Positions 286 to 7,456 of a stretch of DNA of 26,091 nucleotides are shown here, piece after piece (position 1 is the first letter of the stretch; the number at the start of each line of letters is the position of its first letter). Source of the DNA: a virus; IMG/VR virus record IMGVR_UViG_3300030101_004043, positions 307-26,397 of that record; one strand, 5' to 3'. Below the pieces are notes generated by a model that worked only from the letters and a program-made list of their open reading frames with translations, was not told the DNA's origin and did no database searches. The translations under genes were made by a program, and so were the position numbers.

Positions 286-873
286 TTATTGAAAACCTAT
301 ATTACCTGAAATTGATATTCTATATTCATCAGAAGTATAAAAAGGATAGACTTGATGATTCAAAGATGCAGGAAATAATGCCATTTTACCTTCCCATTCT
401 TTATCAGCGGGAATTGCGTGAGACACGATTTGCCCCATATCATTATTCATTATGAAAACAAAATGTCCTGCTCTTATTTCATCTTCTTTCATGTGAGGAA
501 ACCTAGCTTTTTCATCAGCCATGTTAAAAGGAATTTTTTGCCAAATGACAAAACTAAACAAACCGTCATGCACATGAATAGGATTGAACTCATGTTTACC
601 TTGATAATTTACCCAGAGATTGTGTAGCTCTAAATGAAATTTTTTAGTTTTATGCATACCACTTATTCTAGCGTAATAACCAGGATATTTATCAAAATGT
701 GCTTGTATACACTTGTCAATTAAAGGCCAAACGACAGGTTTACCTTCTGGTATCATAAATTCTTTTTGAATATTACCTGCTAAATCGTGATTTGCTTTTT
801 CGGTATGTTTTTTATTAATTACTTCGTCTAGTTTTTTTGTTATGTCATCAGGGACACTTGTTATTAAATACAT
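286..873 (-). CDS. 2OG-Fe(II) oxygenase-like protein (prolyl-hydroxylase type)
   Basis: 195 residues, a full-length single-domain protein of the small 2-oxoglutarate/Fe(II) oxygenase family common near tail genes of marine phages. Seen in the sequence: a beta-strand block LHNLWVNYQGKHEFNPIHVH followed by D103 (H100, H102 and D103 supply the N-terminal metal-ligand cluster), then F168-P-A-S-L-N-H173 as the distal histidine and R185 in EYRISISGNIGF as the expected 2-oxoglutarate salt-bridge residue. Such enzymes hydroxylate proteins or small molecules; the substrate is unknown here. The start ATG at 873 overlaps the TAA of the upstream gene (TAATG), indicating coupled translation. It lies apart from the oxygenase/glycosyltransferase cassette at 3240-5784, separated by three virion-type genes. 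Confidence 0.8.
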   Translation of the reverse strand: MYLITSVPDDITKKLDEVINKKHTEKANHDLAGNIQKEFMIPEGKPVVWPLIDKCIQAHFDKYPGYYARISGMHKTKKFHLELHNLWVNYQGKHEFNPIHVHDGLFSFVIWQKIPFNMADEKARFPHMKEDEIRAGHFVFIMNNDMGQIVSHAIPADKEWEGKMALFPASLNHQVYPFYTSDEYRISISGNIGFQ

Positions 874-1229: not shown

Positions 1230-1395
1230 TATTTAAAAACCACGATCTTCTTGTGGATTCCTCTTGTGTGTCTTGAGTATATTGAGTATTTAATTGTTGA
1301 ACAAGTTCTTCCAACTGTCTAATTAGTTCTGCTTGTTGTTCTCTTTGATATTCATCTCTAGGATCAGGGAATCTTGTTAAAGTTAGTTTTGCCAT
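1222..1395 (-). CDS. Small conserved phage protein, helical
   Basis: 57 residues from ATG at 1395 (MAKLTLTRFPDPRDEYQREQ). A longer frame reaching 1446 exists, but the ATG at 1395 forms a TAATG overlap with the stop of the upstream tail gene, so I take 1395 as the start. The middle (residues about 17-40) is Gln/Glu/Leu-rich and probably helical or coiled coil. The C-terminus reads EESTRRSWFLNNG, a motif I remember from small proteins next to tail genes of marine phages. Function unknown; possibly a small tail component or assembly factor. Confidence 0.7.
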   Translation of the reverse strand: MAKLTLTRFPDPRDEYQREQQAELIRQLEELVQQLNTQYTQDTQEESTRRSWFLNNG

Positions 1396-3221
1396 TATCT
1401 TCTGCCGTCTGGTTGTATGTCGAATCTTTGTGTTCCTAATCTCCAAGCTGTGCCGGTTGTGTTAGAAACAACATTAACTGTAAACTCTCTACCTCTTCCA
1501 CGCAAACTTACAAACTCTGTAGCGTCAGTAAAGGTCGCTGTTTTAATAGTGCTTGTGCTAGTGTTTGGATAATTTTTAAACTCAAGCTTTGCATTTAAAG
1601 TTCCCTCTTGATTCTGCACGTCAGGTATGAGTTTTTGCACAAACAACATATCATTACCGTCTCCTATTTCTACTGATCCAGACTTAACAAAAGCAATCAT
1701 GGCTTCACCATCTGCATCATTGCCTGTTTCATGTAAAAACATTTGAGTTGCTCCATCTGTTAATCCTAAAATTGTTTCATTGTTGGCTGTGGTCGTTGGT
1801 AAGTAGTCAGAGGCTACAGGATTTTCGTACACTTCTCTATCAATCCAAGTCGTTCTATCTAAAGTTCCTATCCACCAAGTTTGCTCTAAATAATTGTATG
1901 CCACTACTGCGTTGATAGTGTCAGATCCTGTTCTAGGATAAAACCACATTATTTCATTGAACTCACCATTGTGCCCTGCAAAAGCATTTTCTGCTCCCGT
2001 TATATTAATATTATTAAAAACAAATTGTTCCACGGTGCAAGGTAGTTTTTTAACTGTACCATCGAATAGAAAGAATGAGTCTTGGGACATCCAATAGGCG
2101 ACACCATTTAAATCAAGTCCTGCGTGAATACCTATGATACCACAGTTTTGACCTAGTTGTCGTAGTCCAAAAGTAAATGGTGGTCCAATAAATTGCATAG
2201 AATGTAATGATGTATCTGTCCATACAAGTATCTGACCTCTTGATCGCTCTGCGGCTACGATACGTGATCCGTCAGCAATACGAAGTGAGCCTGCTGTATT
2301 TTCAGCGGTTGGTTGATACGTAGTAATATTTTCCTGATCAGAAAATCTAATTAATAAATCATCCTGCGAGCCTGTTGTTCCAATCGTATTTTCTGTGCCC
2401 ATAAATACTAAATGTCTATCGGGTGTTGATACTAAGCTTAATCGTGAGGCAGTTGGTGCTCCTGATATTGCTGTAGCTCTTGTGCTAACACCAGAAGACG
2501 TATCCCATTGAAAGGCGCCACCATTTAAAACTGTTGCAATTAAATCTTCACCGAAGTTATCTAGTGACCATTGTCTTGCTTCTAATGTTACATTGGATGT
2601 AGTTGAGGGCGATCCCCAACCTCCTGCGCCCCAAGTATCTGTGCCCCAACCGAAAGCTGAAGTGGATATCTCAGGACCGATTGATATTTGATATTTAGCA
2701 TTACCTGTTCCTCCACCTCCTGATGTAGAACCTGAGGCTGCGCTTGTGTGAGTCACCACATAAGCATCACTGTTTGCGACCGAAGTAATCTCAAATTCTT
2801 TGTTCATGTCTAATCCATCAATTGCTGAAAAAGAATCAAAAGTCACAAAATCACCTTTTTGTGCGCCATGTGATGTATCAGTAACAACCACTGAGACTGT
2901 AGCATTGGTGGTGAAAGGATTGGTTAAAGCCTGTGTTTCTCTTATAGGAGTGATGTCATAAGCCAGACCCTCCTCTATAACGTAAAGTTTTCTATCAGTC
3001 CCTACAGCATTATATCTCGTGCCATCTAAAGCGACCCAAGCATGTTGATCACGTGCAACCCCCACCAAAGTGGTTGAGATAAACTTCTCCCACCCTTTTA
3101 TCTTTTGTGGCAATCCTTGAAAAAAGCGTACGTTATCACCGTCTGTCCACTTGCCTTCGCCTGTGTAGTCGGTTACTTCTTTATTGATGCCGGGTGCTGG
3201 TCTAAAATTAACTAATGGCAT
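1395..3221 (-). CDS. Tail/nozzle-type structural protein, P22 gp10-like (probable)
   Basis: 608 residues. The start MPLVNFRPAPGINKEVTDYT followed by GKWTDGDNVRFFQGLPQKIK is characteristic of a widespread phage tail family placed near connector genes. Repeated aromatic beta-blade-like segments follow (WVALDGTRYNAVGTDRKLYV, GAFQWDTSSGV, GVAYWMSQDSFFLFDGTV, NYLEQTWWIGTLDRTTWIDR), consistent with a beta-propeller like the P22 packaged-DNA stabilisation protein gp10. A Gly/Ser linker (ASGSTSGGGGTGN) lies near residue 170. The fold assignment is an inference from pattern. No strong Shine-Dalgarno precedes the ATG. The gene follows the glycosyltransferase by 18 bases, and its stop is coupled to the next small gene. 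Confidence 0.7.
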   Translation of the reverse strand: MPLVNFRPAPGINKEVTDYTGEGKWTDGDNVRFFQGLPQKIKGWEKFISTTLVGVARDQHAWVALDGTRYNAVGTDRKLYVIEEGLAYDITPIRETQALTNPFTTNATVSVVVTDTSHGAQKGDFVTFDSFSAIDGLDMNKEFEITSVANSDAYVVTHTSAASGSTSGGGGTGNAKYQISIGPEISTSAFGWGTDTWGAGGWGSPSTTSNVTLEARQWSLDNFGEDLIATVLNGGAFQWDTSSGVSTRATAISGAPTASRLSLVSTPDRHLVFMGTENTIGTTGSQDDLLIRFSDQENITTYQPTAENTAGSLRIADGSRIVAAERSRGQILVWTDTSLHSMQFIGPPFTFGLRQLGQNCGIIGIHAGLDLNGVAYWMSQDSFFLFDGTVKKLPCTVEQFVFNNINITGAENAFAGHNGEFNEIMWFYPRTGSDTINAVVAYNYLEQTWWIGTLDRTTWIDREVYENPVASDYLPTTTANNETILGLTDGATQMFLHETGNDADGEAMIAFVKSGSVEIGDGNDMLFVQKLIPDVQNQEGTLNAKLEFKNYPNTSTSTIKTATFTDATEFVSLRGRGREFTVNVVSNTTGTAWRLGTQRFDIQPDGRR

Positions 3222-3239
3222 TGTGCCAATATATATAAA

Positions 3240-4040
3240 TTAGTCTTTTTTAGCAACTAAAGACCCAACATGTCCTCTAAATGCTCTATTACCAAAATGC
3301 GTTAATGGCATCGCTAAATCTGCCCATATCTCTCCATCACACTCTTGCCATAGTCTTGAAAAATAATAGTCTTCTGATAAGTATCTAATCTGTCCTTTAG
3401 TTTCATAAGGTCCAACGGCAAATAAATCATAACAATTATCAGAACTATAAGATAGACCATTTACTATCTGATCAGATTTATATTTACGTTCTGGAAACTT
3501 TTTCATCATTGTACGAAACACTTCTCTTTTAACTAGCATCATACCTGTAGCTGCTTCATTAACTCTAAAAAAACCGTTCTCTCCTTTTATTAATTCTGGA
3601 TTATCAAAATTAACATTATATCCTAAGGCTCTGGCCTCTAACTCATCTAGGGGCACGTTAGGATCTTCTTCTAATATTTTTTTTACTTTTTCTAAGTAAA
3701 TATGTTTTCTAGGGTAAATGCCACAAACAATATCTTTATCGGCGCATAATAATCTTTCAATGTTTTGCCAATGAAAACCTATATCAGCATCAATAAATAA
3801 TAAGTGAGTAGCTGCAAAATCTGTTTGGTCTAACATCATAGAAACAATAGTGTTACGTGCTCTTGTTATTAAACTTTCATTACCCATAGTTTGTACCCTC
3901 ATTTTAATACCACTATTTGCAGTCCAGTTTTGTATTTCTAACAATCCATGCAAGGTAGCCTCCGATAGCATTCCACCATACATAGGCATACCTAAAAATA
4001 TTTTAAAATTCTTATCTTTTAATTCTTCTGGCTTTATCAT
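3240..4040 (-). CDS. GT-A-fold glycosyltransferase-like protein
   Basis: 266 residues. Seen: an N-terminal Rossmann-like strand (FKIFLGMPMYGGMLSEATL, about 12-30), R60-A-R-N-T in the nucleotide-binding region, and the metal-binding DxD motif in HLLFIDADIGFHW (D84, D86). C-terminal acidic and histidine residues typical of GT-A enzymes follow (LSEDYYFSRLW with E223/D224, THFG with H248). No membrane segment, so it is cytoplasmic. It would transfer a sugar from a nucleotide donor; the acceptor is unknown. The start overlaps the stop of the preceding 2OG-Fe(II) oxygenase gene by ATGA. That coupling suggests sequential action: hydroxylation, then glycosylation of a virion or host target. DNA here is visibly more AT-rich than the capsid region. 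Confidence 0.75.
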   Translation of the reverse strand: MIKPEELKDKNFKIFLGMPMYGGMLSEATLHGLLEIQNWTANSGIKMRVQTMGNESLITRARNTIVSMMLDQTDFAATHLLFIDADIGFHWQNIERLLCADKDIVCGIYPRKHIYLEKVKKILEEDPNVPLDELEARALGYNVNFDNPELIKGENGFFRVNEAATGMMLVKREVFRTMMKKFPERKYKSDQIVNGLSYSSDNCYDLFAVGPYETKGQIRYLSEDYYFSRLWQECDGEIWADLAMPLTHFGNRAFRGHVGSLVAKKD

Positions 4041-4648
4041 TTGTTTTCTCTTAATTTATAGGGCTCTTCAAAACTATACCACCCTGTCAAAATATATTTT
4101 TCACTTTTTTCAGATATCATTCCTCGGTGAGTGTGTGTCCAACCAGCAGGCCAAATTAAAGTAAGTCCTTGTTCAGCACTATTTTGTATGTTTGGATATT
4201 CTTTAAATTCTGTGCCAGCATTTTCAACATCATTTAAATATGTCATAAAAACTAAATGTCTGTGGTAACTATTTAAATTACCAGTATTTTCAAAATGCCA
4301 CTCTTTAAATCCTTGATTAGGCTCATAATATTGAAGATTAAAATCTGTCATAATATTAAATCTTTCCGTTAATCCTGAATTTGGATATTTTTTTATGTAT
4401 TGTTCAAGCATACTTTGAAGTAATGCTCTGTATAATCCTATTATATTATCAAAGTTTCCAGAGGATATACTTAAATCTGTGCTCTTTTTAAAATTTTCAT
4501 TTATACCTCCTAATGTTTTTCCTGGGACGGCATATTTTTTATTATAATTAAAATAATCAATTAATTCTTCACAAACATTTTTTTCTATGTACCACCCTCC
4601 AAAAAATGTGCTTGAGTCAAAATGTTTTTCTTTTATTTGAAATTTCAT
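4037..4648 (-). CDS. 2OG-Fe(II) oxygenase-like protein
   Basis: 203 residues from ATG at 4648; a frame reaching 4675 is open, but the 4648 start gives a TAATG junction with the upstream oxygenase stop. Fe-binding candidates are H118 and E120 in KEWHFENTG and H172/H174 in WTHTHRG; K184 in SEKYILTGWYSF may bind 2-oxoglutarate. The strand pattern HLVFMTYLNDVENAGTEF is typical of phage prolyl-hydroxylase-like proteins. The first acidic ligand is Glu rather than the usual Asp, which I also remember from related phage proteins. Middle gene of the coupled oxygenase-oxygenase-glycosyltransferase cassette. Substrate unknown. Confidence 0.8.
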   Translation of the reverse strand: MKFQIKEKHFDSSTFFGGWYIEKNVCEELIDYFNYNKKYAVPGKTLGGINENFKKSTDLSISSGNFDNIIGLYRALLQSMLEQYIKKYPNSGLTERFNIMTDFNLQYYEPNQGFKEWHFENTGNLNSYHRHLVFMTYLNDVENAGTEFKEYPNIQNSAEQGLTLIWPAGWTHTHRGMISEKSEKYILTGWYSFEEPYKLRENK

Positions 4649-5784
4649 TATTTTAAATAAGGGCCCGCTAACCAAGCTACGATTGATCTTCTTGTACCAC
4701 TAATAATAGGTTCAACGCCATGAAGTAAAAAAGAAGGAAAAATAATTACATTTCCAGAGCTAGTATCAGGATAAATTTTATCTCTGCCTAGTTTTAGATA
4801 AAGTCTTCCTCCCTCATAGTCATCATTTAAGAAAGCGATAATTGTTAATTTTCGCATCTCATTTTCATTCTCAAATGATCTGTCAAAACGAGAATCTATA
4901 TGATCAGTAAATACACCATCTTTATCATAACGAAGATATTCACATTGATTACAATGTGTAACATTAAATTTCCACTGTTCATTATTTGCAGCTAATCCTA
5001 TACCTGTTAAAGTCGCCCCTATACCTCTATCTGTAAAAGTTAATATTTTTTTTGTATCTCTTATTGTTCTATCTAAAACATTTCCAATTAATAAAGCATC
5101 AATTGCCACCTCTTCATAATTTTTTTCAAATTGTTCTATTATTTTTTTACAAGAACCTTGTGAAAAAGAATTTCTTTGTATTAAAAAAATATCTCTTTTA
5201 TCTTCATTAACTTTATGATGAGCAAGTTTTCTTCTTTTATCAAATTTCCATTCTTTATTAGGTCCATCTGCATCAACATAGTGTACAAAAACCTGTGCCT
5301 GCCACTGACCTTCAACATACTTTTCTCTCCAATGAAATATTTGCTCTCCTTTGTAAATGACCGCATCTCCCACATTCATATTTATTTGTTTGGCATCACT
5401 TTTATCTAGATTATTACCAACATAGATAGGCCATTGCCCGCCTTCAAAACCTAAAGTAATTGTTGCACTTATTTCACAAGCTGGTCTATCCTTATGTATT
5501 TTTAATTCATCACCGGGAGCATACCATCTAGCATATGCGTAAGTAGGATATAGTTTTTTACCTGTGACGGTTTGCATGTGAGGAGTTAACTGTTCTAAAA
5601 GAGAATCAAATAAAGGAGTGTGCCCCAGAGATAGAGAAAGAGGACATTGAGGATCTTTTTTACAAAGTCCTTGATCAATTAGTTTTTTAAATTCTGCAAC
5701 GTATTGTTGACAATTTTCATTGTCTAAAAATTCATTTAAGTAAACATAATTATTTTCTTGAAAAAATAATTTCTTTTCTTCCAT
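4648..5784 (-). CDS. Tandem (two-domain) 2OG-Fe(II) oxygenase
   Basis: 378 residues carrying two oxygenase domains. Domain 1 (about 1-175) has H97-K-D99 in LKIHKDRPACEISATI, a distal H151 in EQIFHWREKY, and WQAQVFVHYVDADGP. Domain 2 (about 195-378) has H295-I-D297 in FTDHIDSRFD, distal H355 in FLLHGVEPI, and R365/R366 in SGTRRSIVAWLAGP, the classic prolyl-4-hydroxylase arrangement with NDDYEGGRLYL before it. Both metal triads appear intact, so both halves may be active. Start ATG at 5784 has no good Shine-Dalgarno; the AT-rich 48-base leader contains a TATAAT-like box on the minus strand, so the cassette may have its own promoter. Its stop is fused to the next oxygenase start. Confidence 0.8.
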   Translation of the reverse strand: MEEKKLFFQENNYVYLNEFLDNENCQQYVAEFKKLIDQGLCKKDPQCPLSLSLGHTPLFDSLLEQLTPHMQTVTGKKLYPTYAYARWYAPGDELKIHKDRPACEISATITLGFEGGQWPIYVGNNLDKSDAKQINMNVGDAVIYKGEQIFHWREKYVEGQWQAQVFVHYVDADGPNKEWKFDKRRKLAHHKVNEDKRDIFLIQRNSFSQGSCKKIIEQFEKNYEEVAIDALLIGNVLDRTIRDTKKILTFTDRGIGATLTGIGLAANNEQWKFNVTHCNQCEYLRYDKDGVFTDHIDSRFDRSFENENEMRKLTIIAFLNDDYEGGRLYLKLGRDKIYPDTSSGNVIIFPSFLLHGVEPIISGTRRSIVAWLAGPYLK

Positions 5785-5832: not shown

Positions 5833-6105
5833 CTATGAAGGATAATCTGCATTAACTAGTTGTTTGATTGTCGAATCAGAAGTGTCATAATAATACGCAC
5901 TGGTATTGACTGATGTATTGCAGTCGACCCACAATAAAGCTGTTGGGTTTACTTCAAACTCATTTTCTTCAATCTGACAAATTCTTGCAGAGTTAGGAAT
6001 AACTTCCTTAACTGGGTAATGAGTATCAACTCCATCCACAGTTTTTGTAGTCCAACTAGCTATTCTAAGTAAATCTGTTGATTGTAAATCTATTAAAGCT
6101 TTCAT
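5833..6105 (-). CDS. Small conserved phage protein (fibre-associated?)
   Basis: 90 residues, MKALIDLQSTDLLRIASWTT at the start. The core (EVIPNSARICQIEENEFEVN, then ALLWVDCNTS) resembles short beta-rich proteins that I remember beside fibre genes in marine phages, with the aromatic/acidic C-terminal half TSAYYYDTSDSTIKQL. No membrane segment. It lies one base downstream of the glycine-rich fibre stop, so the two are probably co-translated. It might be a fibre chaperone or a small tail component; no function can be read from the sequence. Confidence 0.65.
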   Translation of the reverse strand: MKALIDLQSTDLLRIASWTTKTVDGVDTHYPVKEVIPNSARICQIEENEFEVNPTALLWVDCNTSVNTSAYYYDTSDSTIKQLVNADYPS

Positions 6106-6106
6106 G

Positions 6107-7456
6107 TTAACTTAAATACTCCTCTACTAAAACAAAACCATCTCCGCCAGGACCACCAGAAGTTCCACCAGCATTAACTCGACCTGCTGCTCCACCTCCA
6201 GAACCAGCTATTCCAGTCTTACCATTAGAAGCAGGAGCGGCTATTTCGTCTTCGCCTTGTGCTCCACCTTGAGCATATAAACTACCACCACCTTGAGGAT
6301 ATCTTCGAGAGTGCCCACCTGTGATTCCATCTTGGTTGTAATCACCACCAGAACCAGATCCACCTGCACCGCCATCTGATCTACCGCCAGGTTGTGCTCC
6401 TACTCCAGCGCCACCACCAGTAGCAGAGCAAAAAGAACCAAAACTGGAAGTTGATCCATTATTACCATTATTACCGTTAGTGTTACCACCGTTACCCCCG
6501 TTACCACCACTACCAACAGTGACTGAAACAGGTCCCGGAATACTGGAAACAGGAATGGCTTCGATTGCGGCACCGCCACCACCACCACCGCCTGGAAATT
6601 CATTTGTTGAAGATCCACCTGCACCGCCACCACCACCTTGAACAGTGACTTTTACACTTTTTAAAGAAGCGGGAGGTGAATATGTGCCGGGGCTATTAAA
6701 GACAACTAAATTGTATCCACCAAAACCAGCAGCAGCAGCAAATTCAAGCGCTGATCCACCAGAGTTAACTGTTAAAACTTCTCCAGCAGAACCAAGAGAA
6801 GTTAAACCTGTACCACCTTTACTTGTTGGTACGGTTGGTAATCGAGCATCTGCTAAAGTTCCTGAGGCAATGTTAGTTGCATTTAAATCTGTCAAAGCAG
6901 ATCCGTTAAGTGCGGGTAAAGTTGCAGGGAATCTTGCGTCAGGTAAAGTTCCTGAAGCAACATTACTTGCATTTAAATTTGTTAAATTAGCACCAGAAAC
7001 TTGTGGAAGTGTTCCAGTTTGAGAACCTAGATCTGTAGATGATGCAATCTCTACATTAAAATTCGAAGAGCCATCACAATATACGGTTGTCTTTGCGCCT
7101 TGTGTAATTTGTGTACCATTAGCTGTATGCCCTGTAGCTGCAATTGTTAAGGTTTGTGAACCTGTAGTATTATTAAAAAAAGTATAATTACTTTCAACAG
7201 CAGGAATAAATACGACAATATCTCCTGTAAGAGCACCAGTGAGTTCAATTACTTTATTTGACGCCTCCGCAGTGTCTGAAGCATTAGCTGTTGTAAGAGT
7301 AATATTAGCAGAACCCGCAACTGATTTAGATAAATAACCTGCTGAAAAAGCATCAATAACATCTAAATTGTTGTTGGTATTTGTACCCCATGTATTGGCA
7401 TTAGCGCCAGTAGCCATGAGTTCTAGTTTAAGTCTATCTGAAAATGTGCTTGCCAT
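6107..7456 (-). CDS. Tail fibre / receptor-binding protein with glycine-rich tip
   Basis: 449 residues. The N-terminal part (about 1-140, MASTFSDRLKLELMATGANA, then NTWGTNTNNNLDVIDAF) is a virion-attachment type domain found in many marine phage fibres. Two near-identical shaft repeats follow at about 149-176 and 180-207, pattern LPxxxGxxLTxLNAxNxASGTL, then a GGTGLTSLGSAGEVL hinge (214-228). The C-terminal domain (about 270-449) is packed with polyglycine stretches (QGGGGGAGG, PGGGGGGGAAI, GSGGNGGNGGN) and ends GDGFVLVEEYLS. It recalls polyglycine-sandwich adhesin tips of phage receptor-binding proteins. Shine-Dalgarno GAGG lies eight bases before the ATG. Likely determines host range. Confidence 0.8.
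   Translation of the reverse strand: MASTFSDRLKLELMATGANANTWGTNTNNNLDVIDAFSAGYLSKSVAGSANITLTTANASDTAEASNKVIELTGALTGDIVVFIPAVESNYTFFNNTTGSQTLTIAATGHTANGTQITQGAKTTVYCDGSSNFNVEIASSTDLGSQTGTLPQVSGANLTNLNASNVASGTLPDARFPATLPALNGSALTDLNATNIASGTLADARLPTVPTSKGGTGLTSLGSAGEVLTVNSGGSALEFAAAAGFGGYNLVVFNSPGTYSPPASLKSVKVTVQGGGGGAGGSSTNEFPGGGGGGGAAIEAIPVSSIPGPVSVTVGSGGNGGNGGNTNGNNGNNGSTSSFGSFCSATGGGAGVGAQPGGRSDGGAGGSGSGGDYNQDGITGGHSRRYPQGGGSLYAQGGAQGEDEIAAPASNGKTGIAGSGGGAAGRVNAGGTSGGPGGDGFVLVEEYLS

Follow-up and report, generated by a model that had tools for sequence, protein, structure and literature searches.

Combinations of a 2-oxoglutarate (2OG) oxygenase with a GT-A glycosyltransferase (GT) that serve a structural protein are known from Mimivirus L230 and from animal LH3 and COLGALT1. 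A virus-encoded 2OG oxygenase and GT-A transferase, which may likewise serve a structural protein, are found in the DNA analysed here, a stretch of 26,091 nucleotides (the window) corresponding to positions 307-26397 of a 31,554-base IMG/VR virus record (IMGVR_UViG_3300030101_004043). Its minus strand carries, in this order, a tail fibre, the small gene g5833, the oxygenases oxyA and oxyB, the GT, a gp10-like tail protein and, later, a further oxygenase, oxyC; our subject is the company that oxyA keeps with the Gly-rich tip of the fibre. LH3 and COLGALT1 are among the nearest PDB folds of the window GT, but with template modelling (TM) scores below 0.5, and the window differs from these systems in having separate genes and no Gly-X-Y substrate, with Lys rare and Lys-Gly depleted. 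The window terminase shares 63-68% identity with the terminases of two cultured Pelagibacter phages, HTVC023P and HTVC027P, and of two relatives, and by its sequence the phage is an HTVC023P-type podovirus relative whose host, judging from this terminase kinship, is probably SAR11.

Bacterial prolyl 4-hydroxylase (3itq/5hv0) is matched end to end by the C-domain of oxyA (residues 201-373, E 2.8e-7, oxyA profile against PDB sequences), whereas oxyA adds a second oxygenase domain and lies beside a phage fibre. In phages Pam3 (gp24/gp25) and S16 (gp38) a Gly-rich C-terminal tip is followed by a small gene; in both Pam3 gp24 and S16 gp38 the Gly-rich domain serves as the receptor-binding tip, and in Pam3 a chaperone from the neighbouring gene folds it (PMC9608196). 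The Pam3 tip has about 39% Gly, and the window tip holds 39 Gly in its richest stretch of 100 residues (Gly_rich_2, 5.9e-13). No oxygenase is described in the part of the source drawn on here (PMC9608196), and g5833 shows no detectable similarity to the solved chaperones. In glycosylated mycobacteriophages, too, a phage GT is taken to modify a virion protein (PMC11256854). Those are different phages, and for the window a virion sugar is a proposal. To our knowledge, no oxygenase partner is known for the glycosylated mycobacteriophage virions. Finally, the same genes occur in split form in the same phage group, as the 2OG oxygenase and 'ferrochelatase' of HTVC023P-type phages; there they were read as metabolic partner genes involving heme chemistry (PMC9599517), whereas here both are taken to be oxygenases tied to fibre-tip cassettes.

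The fibre and the genes that follow it are arranged as listed.

6107-7456, minus strand: tail fibre, 449 amino acids; Gly_rich_2 (Pfam), 5.9e-13; phrog_863 tail fibre
About 6107-6709, minus strand: Gly-rich C-terminal tip of the fibre, ending FVLVEEYLS; proposed substrate
5833-6105, minus strand: g5833, 90 amino acids; small partner between the Gly-rich tip and oxyA
4648-5784, minus strand: oxyA, 378 amino acids; two fused 2OG-Fe(II) oxygenase domains
5200-5784, minus strand: oxyA N-domain, residues 1-195; phrog_2954; jelly-roll model
4648-5199, minus strand: oxyA C-domain; 2OG-FeII_Oxy_3; H295, D297, H355 and R365 invariant
4646-4650, minus strand: TAATG stop-start overlap of oxyA and oxyB, read in the sequence
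4037-4648, minus strand: oxyB, 203 amino acids; single 2OG-Fe(II) oxygenase; Pfam 4e-7; phrog_61
4037-4040, minus strand: ATGA start-stop overlap of oxyB and the GT, read in the sequence
3240-4040, minus strand: GT, a GT-A glycosyltransferase, 266 amino acids; phrog_1574

The start of oxyB was taken as the ATG at 4648, a 212-residue open reading frame (ORF) from a TTG at 4675 being a mechanical extension. A preliminary description of this DNA had proposed three genes joined by TAATG and ATGA overlaps and encoding a double-domain oxygenase, a second oxygenase and a DxD-containing GT-A glycosyltransferase. Both overlaps are present; Pfam matches bear out the C-half of oxyA and oxyB, a structural model bears out the N-half, and the GT has an invariant D84/D86 pair in a modelled GT-A fold. 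The Gly-rich fibre and gp10-like protein given as flanks were also found, except that the fibre does not adjoin the trio directly, since g5833 intervenes.

Linkage of oxyA to the Gly-rich tip and g5833

The window fibre consists of a conserved N-terminal attachment part and the Gly-rich C-terminal tip. Related loci were analysed on metagenomic contigs, with ORFs called by a simple script and families assigned by profiles built in this analysis; the contigs are redundant, and the locus counts given throughout are not counts of independent events. A Gly-rich ORF was found within four genes upstream of 25 of the 26 distinct fused oxyA, on several phage backbones, the background rate of such ORFs being 148/3510. 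The sole fused oxyA without one lies where the contig end cuts the ORF, and the remaining fragment is itself Gly-rich. A g5833 relative was present within three genes upstream, again for 25/26, the exception, L177, having it two genes on the downstream side of oxyA; oxyB followed oxyA in 12 of the 26. The scan with oxyA alone also reached phages that lack the GT, with fused oxyA of 45-52% identity. Between backbones the fibre N-termini differ, the tip is alike, and tip, g5833 and oxyA remain together. A reverse scan recovered oxyA wherever the sequence extends far enough; it was run with a single g5833 protein, the g5833 alignment being too divergent as a query, and its set is one related phage group and not an independent sample.

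Among 17 g5833 relatives, 13 match phrog_1787, catalogued as of unknown function. The protein had no Pfam match, and its comparison with PDB sequences gave nothing useful and no detectable similarity to solved chaperones; the fibre tip had no match among PDB sequences either. Searches of cultured phages by tblastn returned no match for g5833 and none for the Gly-rich tip, the latter search being limited by low-complexity filtering. By its position, g5833 is probably an assembly partner of the tip and could be chaperone- or adaptor-like. At four loci (L028, L035, L036 and L055), three tandem fibre paralogues with a common N-terminal part lie upstream of one oxygenase pair.

Trees of the N-type oxygenase domain and of the GT were compared for the same 82 loci of the lineage, which were sorted into four cassette types (g5833, c43, c15 and c10/c11). 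Changes of cassette type numbered 3 on the oxygenase tree, the least possible, versus 18 on the GT tree. On these trees, the oxygenases have been exchanged along with the fibre cassette while the GT stayed, and the persistence of tip, g5833 and oxyA across backbones is a stronger argument than the contrast between trees. The association of fibre and oxygenase is thus tighter than was apparent in the preliminary description, given the 25/26 Gly-rich tips, the agreement of the reverse scan and the swapping of the oxygenase with the fibre cassette.

Among cultured phages, P-RSM4, S-CAM8, HTVC008M, HTVC023P and HTVC033P, which include myoviruses and relatives of the window phage, carry a split oxygenase pair beside a Gly-rich protein with 35-52 Gly per 100 residues. 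HTVC027P is without both the oxygenase pair and the Gly-rich tip.

The oxygenases and the glycosyltransferase

The Pfam matches of the C-half of oxyA (2OG-FeII_Oxy_3, E 2.8e-14), oxyB and oxyC all exceed the curated cut-offs. One best PDB match of the oxyA C-domain is deposited as procollagen-proline dioxygenase, and the oxyA profile also weakly matches a prolyl 3-hydroxylase in PDB (0.0071). The iron triad of this domain (H295, D297, H355) and R365 are invariant in the alignment. No significant Pfam match was obtained for the N-half; its model, built from an alignment of 43 sequences (predicted local distance difference test, pLDDT, 96.6), is a 2OG oxygenase jelly-roll nearest to the P. putida prolyl-4-hydroxylase 4j25 (E 2.6e-9), with the iron ligands H97, D99 and H151 invariant in all 43. 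By alignment and model, oxyA is predicted to hold two complete 2OG-Fe(II) active sites with intact iron triads. The double-stranded beta-helix fold is assigned by model to the N-domain and by Pfam to the C-domain, oxyB and oxyC. The 2OG-anchoring residue is predicted to be R365 in the C-domain and, by motif, a Lys in the oxyB family, most members of which show the motif HxE...H, and the N-domain candidate is uncertain. A scan of GTDB with oxyA yielded a single phage-like contig, L324, where an ORF resembling the tip lies upstream, and single-domain relatives in bacterial metagenome-assembled genomes (MAGs), the neighbours of which gave no clear lead. Among these, L326, L330 and L333 carry N-domain relatives on long bacterial MAG contigs in which a phage context is not obvious.

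The family of the oxyA N-domain, phrog_2954, is catalogued as 'ferrochelatase', an identity that was rejected here: 0/43 members match the ferrochelatase Pfam family and the fold is the oxygenase jelly-roll. The label looks wrong, judging from these profile searches and the model. It is nevertheless the annotation carried in cyanophages and pelagiphages by phrog_2954 members (window 5200-5784, L082:11302-11922), including HTVC023P gp67, and such calls were used in two recent ocean studies (PMC9599517, PMC11561400).

In the GT, the residues D84, D86, E223, D224 and H248 are invariant in 42 aligned sequences and together make up the full GT-A signature (DxD, xED and a C-terminal His), here within a modelled GT-A fold. 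The nearest folds of the model (pLDDT 90.8) were Mnn9 and then LH3 and COLGALT1; matches to the latter type had Foldseek E-values of 2e-7 to 3e-6 and TM scores of 0.41-0.49, whereas Pfam prefers Anp1, which distant GT members match (8.4e-6, Pfam). Two further features of the window bear on the setting of this gene.

1395-3221, minus strand: gp10-like tail/stabilization protein; phrog_3287, E 3.6e-86; similar genes are annotated 'stabilization protein'
286-873, minus strand: oxyC, a 2OG-Fe(II) oxygenase; occupies a second variable slot; 2OG-FeII_Oxy_5, 2.3e-8; phrog_81

The latter match upholds the further oxygenase of the preliminary description. When conservation of the trio was assessed in 80 loci with distinct GTs and a complete fibre-GT interval, the exact order oxyA-oxyB-GT was found in 1/80, the window itself. 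The trio as a conserved unit is thus rejected; lack of such conservation was among the outcomes that the preliminary description had named as counting against its reading, and for the exact trio it was observed. An oxygenase pair was present inside the fibre-GT interval in 74/80 loci, split in most and fused as oxyA in 5, and an oxygenase-like gene immediately preceded the GT in 61/80. In many relatives, the oxygenase and GT genes share 4 or 8 nucleotides at their junction, so that this overlap is not due to chance. When gp10 was used for the scan instead of the GT, the latter was present in 52/52 complete fibre-gp10 intervals, and in distant podoviral contigs its homologues of 43-51% identity immediately precede gp10 or lie amid other tail genes. 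Therefore, the GT is a backbone gene of the tail block in the HTVC023P-like lineage.

Around the GT, more than 20 oxygenase-like families come and go, together with sulfotransferases and a carbamoyltransferase (L010:6199-7008, L058:7252-7884, L042:4970-6331) in variable slots beside the fibre and the GT. In P-RSM4 and S-CAM8 a carbamoyltransferase also separates the Gly-rich tip from the oxygenase pair. A DUF6065 protein (cluster c14) is a frequent downstream neighbour of the c1-c2 oxygenase pair, as at L021:4520-5233 and about 20 other loci. A conserved Methyltransf_24/TylF-like methyltransferase, which could be a sugar or hydroxyl O-methyltransferase, is encoded in the window's own record outside the window (L319:3132-3770) and in two relatives (L321:481-1110 and L323:923-1555). 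In HTVC008M (L087:18764-20158) an annotated tryptophan halogenase stands beside a PhyH-type oxygenase between terminase genes.

Candidate substrate and competing explanations

The tips average 31% Gly and 6% Pro, and each has at least one Pro-Gly. This dipeptide is mildly enriched (187 observed vs. 148.5 expected), GPP is depleted (3 vs. 9.1), and Lys is rare with Lys-Gly depleted. A collagen triple helix and hydroxylysine are thus unlikely, and a collagen-like Gly-X-Y substrate was not supported. The analogy with collagen modification drawn in the preliminary description survives as a structural echo, in the prolyl-4-hydroxylase, LH3 and COLGALT1 neighbours of the enzymes, but not as collagen-like tips.

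The gene order, the co-transfer of oxyA with the tip and g5833, the folds and the intact catalytic residues are the observed basis on which we infer a substrate, a modified residue, an order of steps and a link between hydroxylation and sugar. The late gene block of this pelagiphage-like podovirus would contain an exchangeable cassette for fibre-tip maturation, in which the Gly-rich C-terminus of the fibre would be the receptor-binding tip and g5833 its assembly partner. OxyA, with oxyB where present, would hydroxylate residues of either the tip or g5833 in the course of assembly, drawing on host 2OG, iron and oxygen. The GT, a separate backbone gene, would most likely glycosylate a protein of the tail or fibre, perhaps at the newly made hydroxyls. 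As a whole, we regard this explanation as having an even chance of being right, and the action of the oxygenases on the tip or its partner is equally balanced; that the GT acts on a virion protein falls slightly short of this. Placement of the sugar on a new hydroxyl is possible but weaker, and rather improbable in our estimate: the usual place of the GT behind an oxygenase favours such a step, whereas the occurrence of fused oxyA without GT outside the window lineage and of T4-like GT relatives in replication clusters weighs against it. Searches of open-licence PMC papers found nothing bearing on phage hydroxyproline or a prolyl hydroxylase acting on tails.

Several observations weigh against fibre-tip maturation. 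GT relatives of about 31-37% identity lie in DNA-replication or DNA-metabolism clusters: in the T4-like phages phiM12, Cr30, DLP_6 and OC they have genes of the gp46/47 region on one side and the sliding clamp on the other, and in two spring phages their neighbours are nucleases or DNA methylases. Linkage alone would partly give the contrast of 3 versus 18 changes, and adjacent genes move together whether or not they are in functional contact. The c10/c11 cassettes are the most numerous in the window lineage and their fibres are not Gly-rich, so the rule is one of tip type with oxygenase type and not always of Gly-rich tips. In the cultured phages ACG-2014f and S-T4 the fused version lies away from Gly-rich or fibre genes, and in S-SCSM1 the tail fibre next to the pair is not rich in Gly. 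The fold of the N-domain also resembles the small-molecule enzymes SnoN, SnoK and HygX and AlkB oxygenases.

This last resemblance, as far as it concerns SnoN, SnoK and HygX, would suit auxiliary metabolic genes, with oxygenases acting on host metabolites or on the balance of 2OG and iron and the 'ferrochelatase' on heme. This view has been published for cyanophages and pelagiphages: Sullivan 2010 proposed 2OG/NtcA and DNA-repair roles for the oxygenases (PMC3037559), and Wittmers 2022 treated eight nonorthologous oxygenases and 'ferrochelatase' as partner auxiliary genes (PMC9599517). However, the 'ferrochelatase' itself has the oxygenase fold and matches no ferrochelatase profile, and an enzyme of this kind would have no need to travel with one tip type across phage lineages, so we consider the metabolic role unlikely. 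Also unlikely, in our judgement, is a mechanical linkage in which the fibre region, as a recombining hotspot, gathers morons whose enzymes may alter host surface glycans, for example in superinfection exclusion. The turnover of more than 20 oxygenase families, sulfotransferases and a carbamoyltransferase in the same slots fits such cargo, but oxyA, g5833 and tip stay constant while other cargo varies, and the pair is kept within 74/80 fibre-GT intervals.

The genomic setting of the GT relatives in the four T4-like phages and the two spring phages would fit a scheme in which the oxygenase hydroxylates a DNA base and the GT adds a sugar, as in JBP/TET-like hypermodification, and the N-domain gave sub-threshold TET-like structure matches (E 0.2-0.4) besides its AlkB-type folds. 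Nevertheless, oxyA scored 12.7 bits against Tet_JBP, the cut-off being 34.9, base-hypermodification enzymes were absent among the larger ORFs of the replication regions of two relatives, and fused oxyA is found without the GT. Tet_JBP had 0 matches in 9 genomes, a weak point given that control genomes were equally silent. Overall, DNA hypermodification seems very unlikely.

Possible modification of host-recognising virion parts in marine phages

The movement of an oxygenase pair with its tip between unrelated phages suggests chemical modification of the host-recognising part of the virion. It is conceivable, although we hold it only tentatively, that the window represents a widespread and previously unrecognised class of tail-fibre hydroxylation, in which each kind of tip has its own 2OG oxygenase pair, some lineages add sugar, sulfate or carbamoyl groups, and host recognition is diversified chemically and not by sequence alone. 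Ecological conclusions built on the 'ferrochelatase' label of phrog_2954 may need revising. Few unexplained genes of marine phages are as common as the 2OG-Fe(II) oxygenases, which for more than a decade have been assigned to host metabolism. If they modify the tip, a large group of genes now taken as metabolic would instead serve host recognition, and the hydroxylation of proteins by phage enzymes could be tested for in highly abundant viruses of the ocean. HTVC023P, HTVC033P, HTVC008M, P-RSM4 and S-CAM8, cultured phages in which the pair stands next to a Gly-rich tip, allow this to be tested directly.

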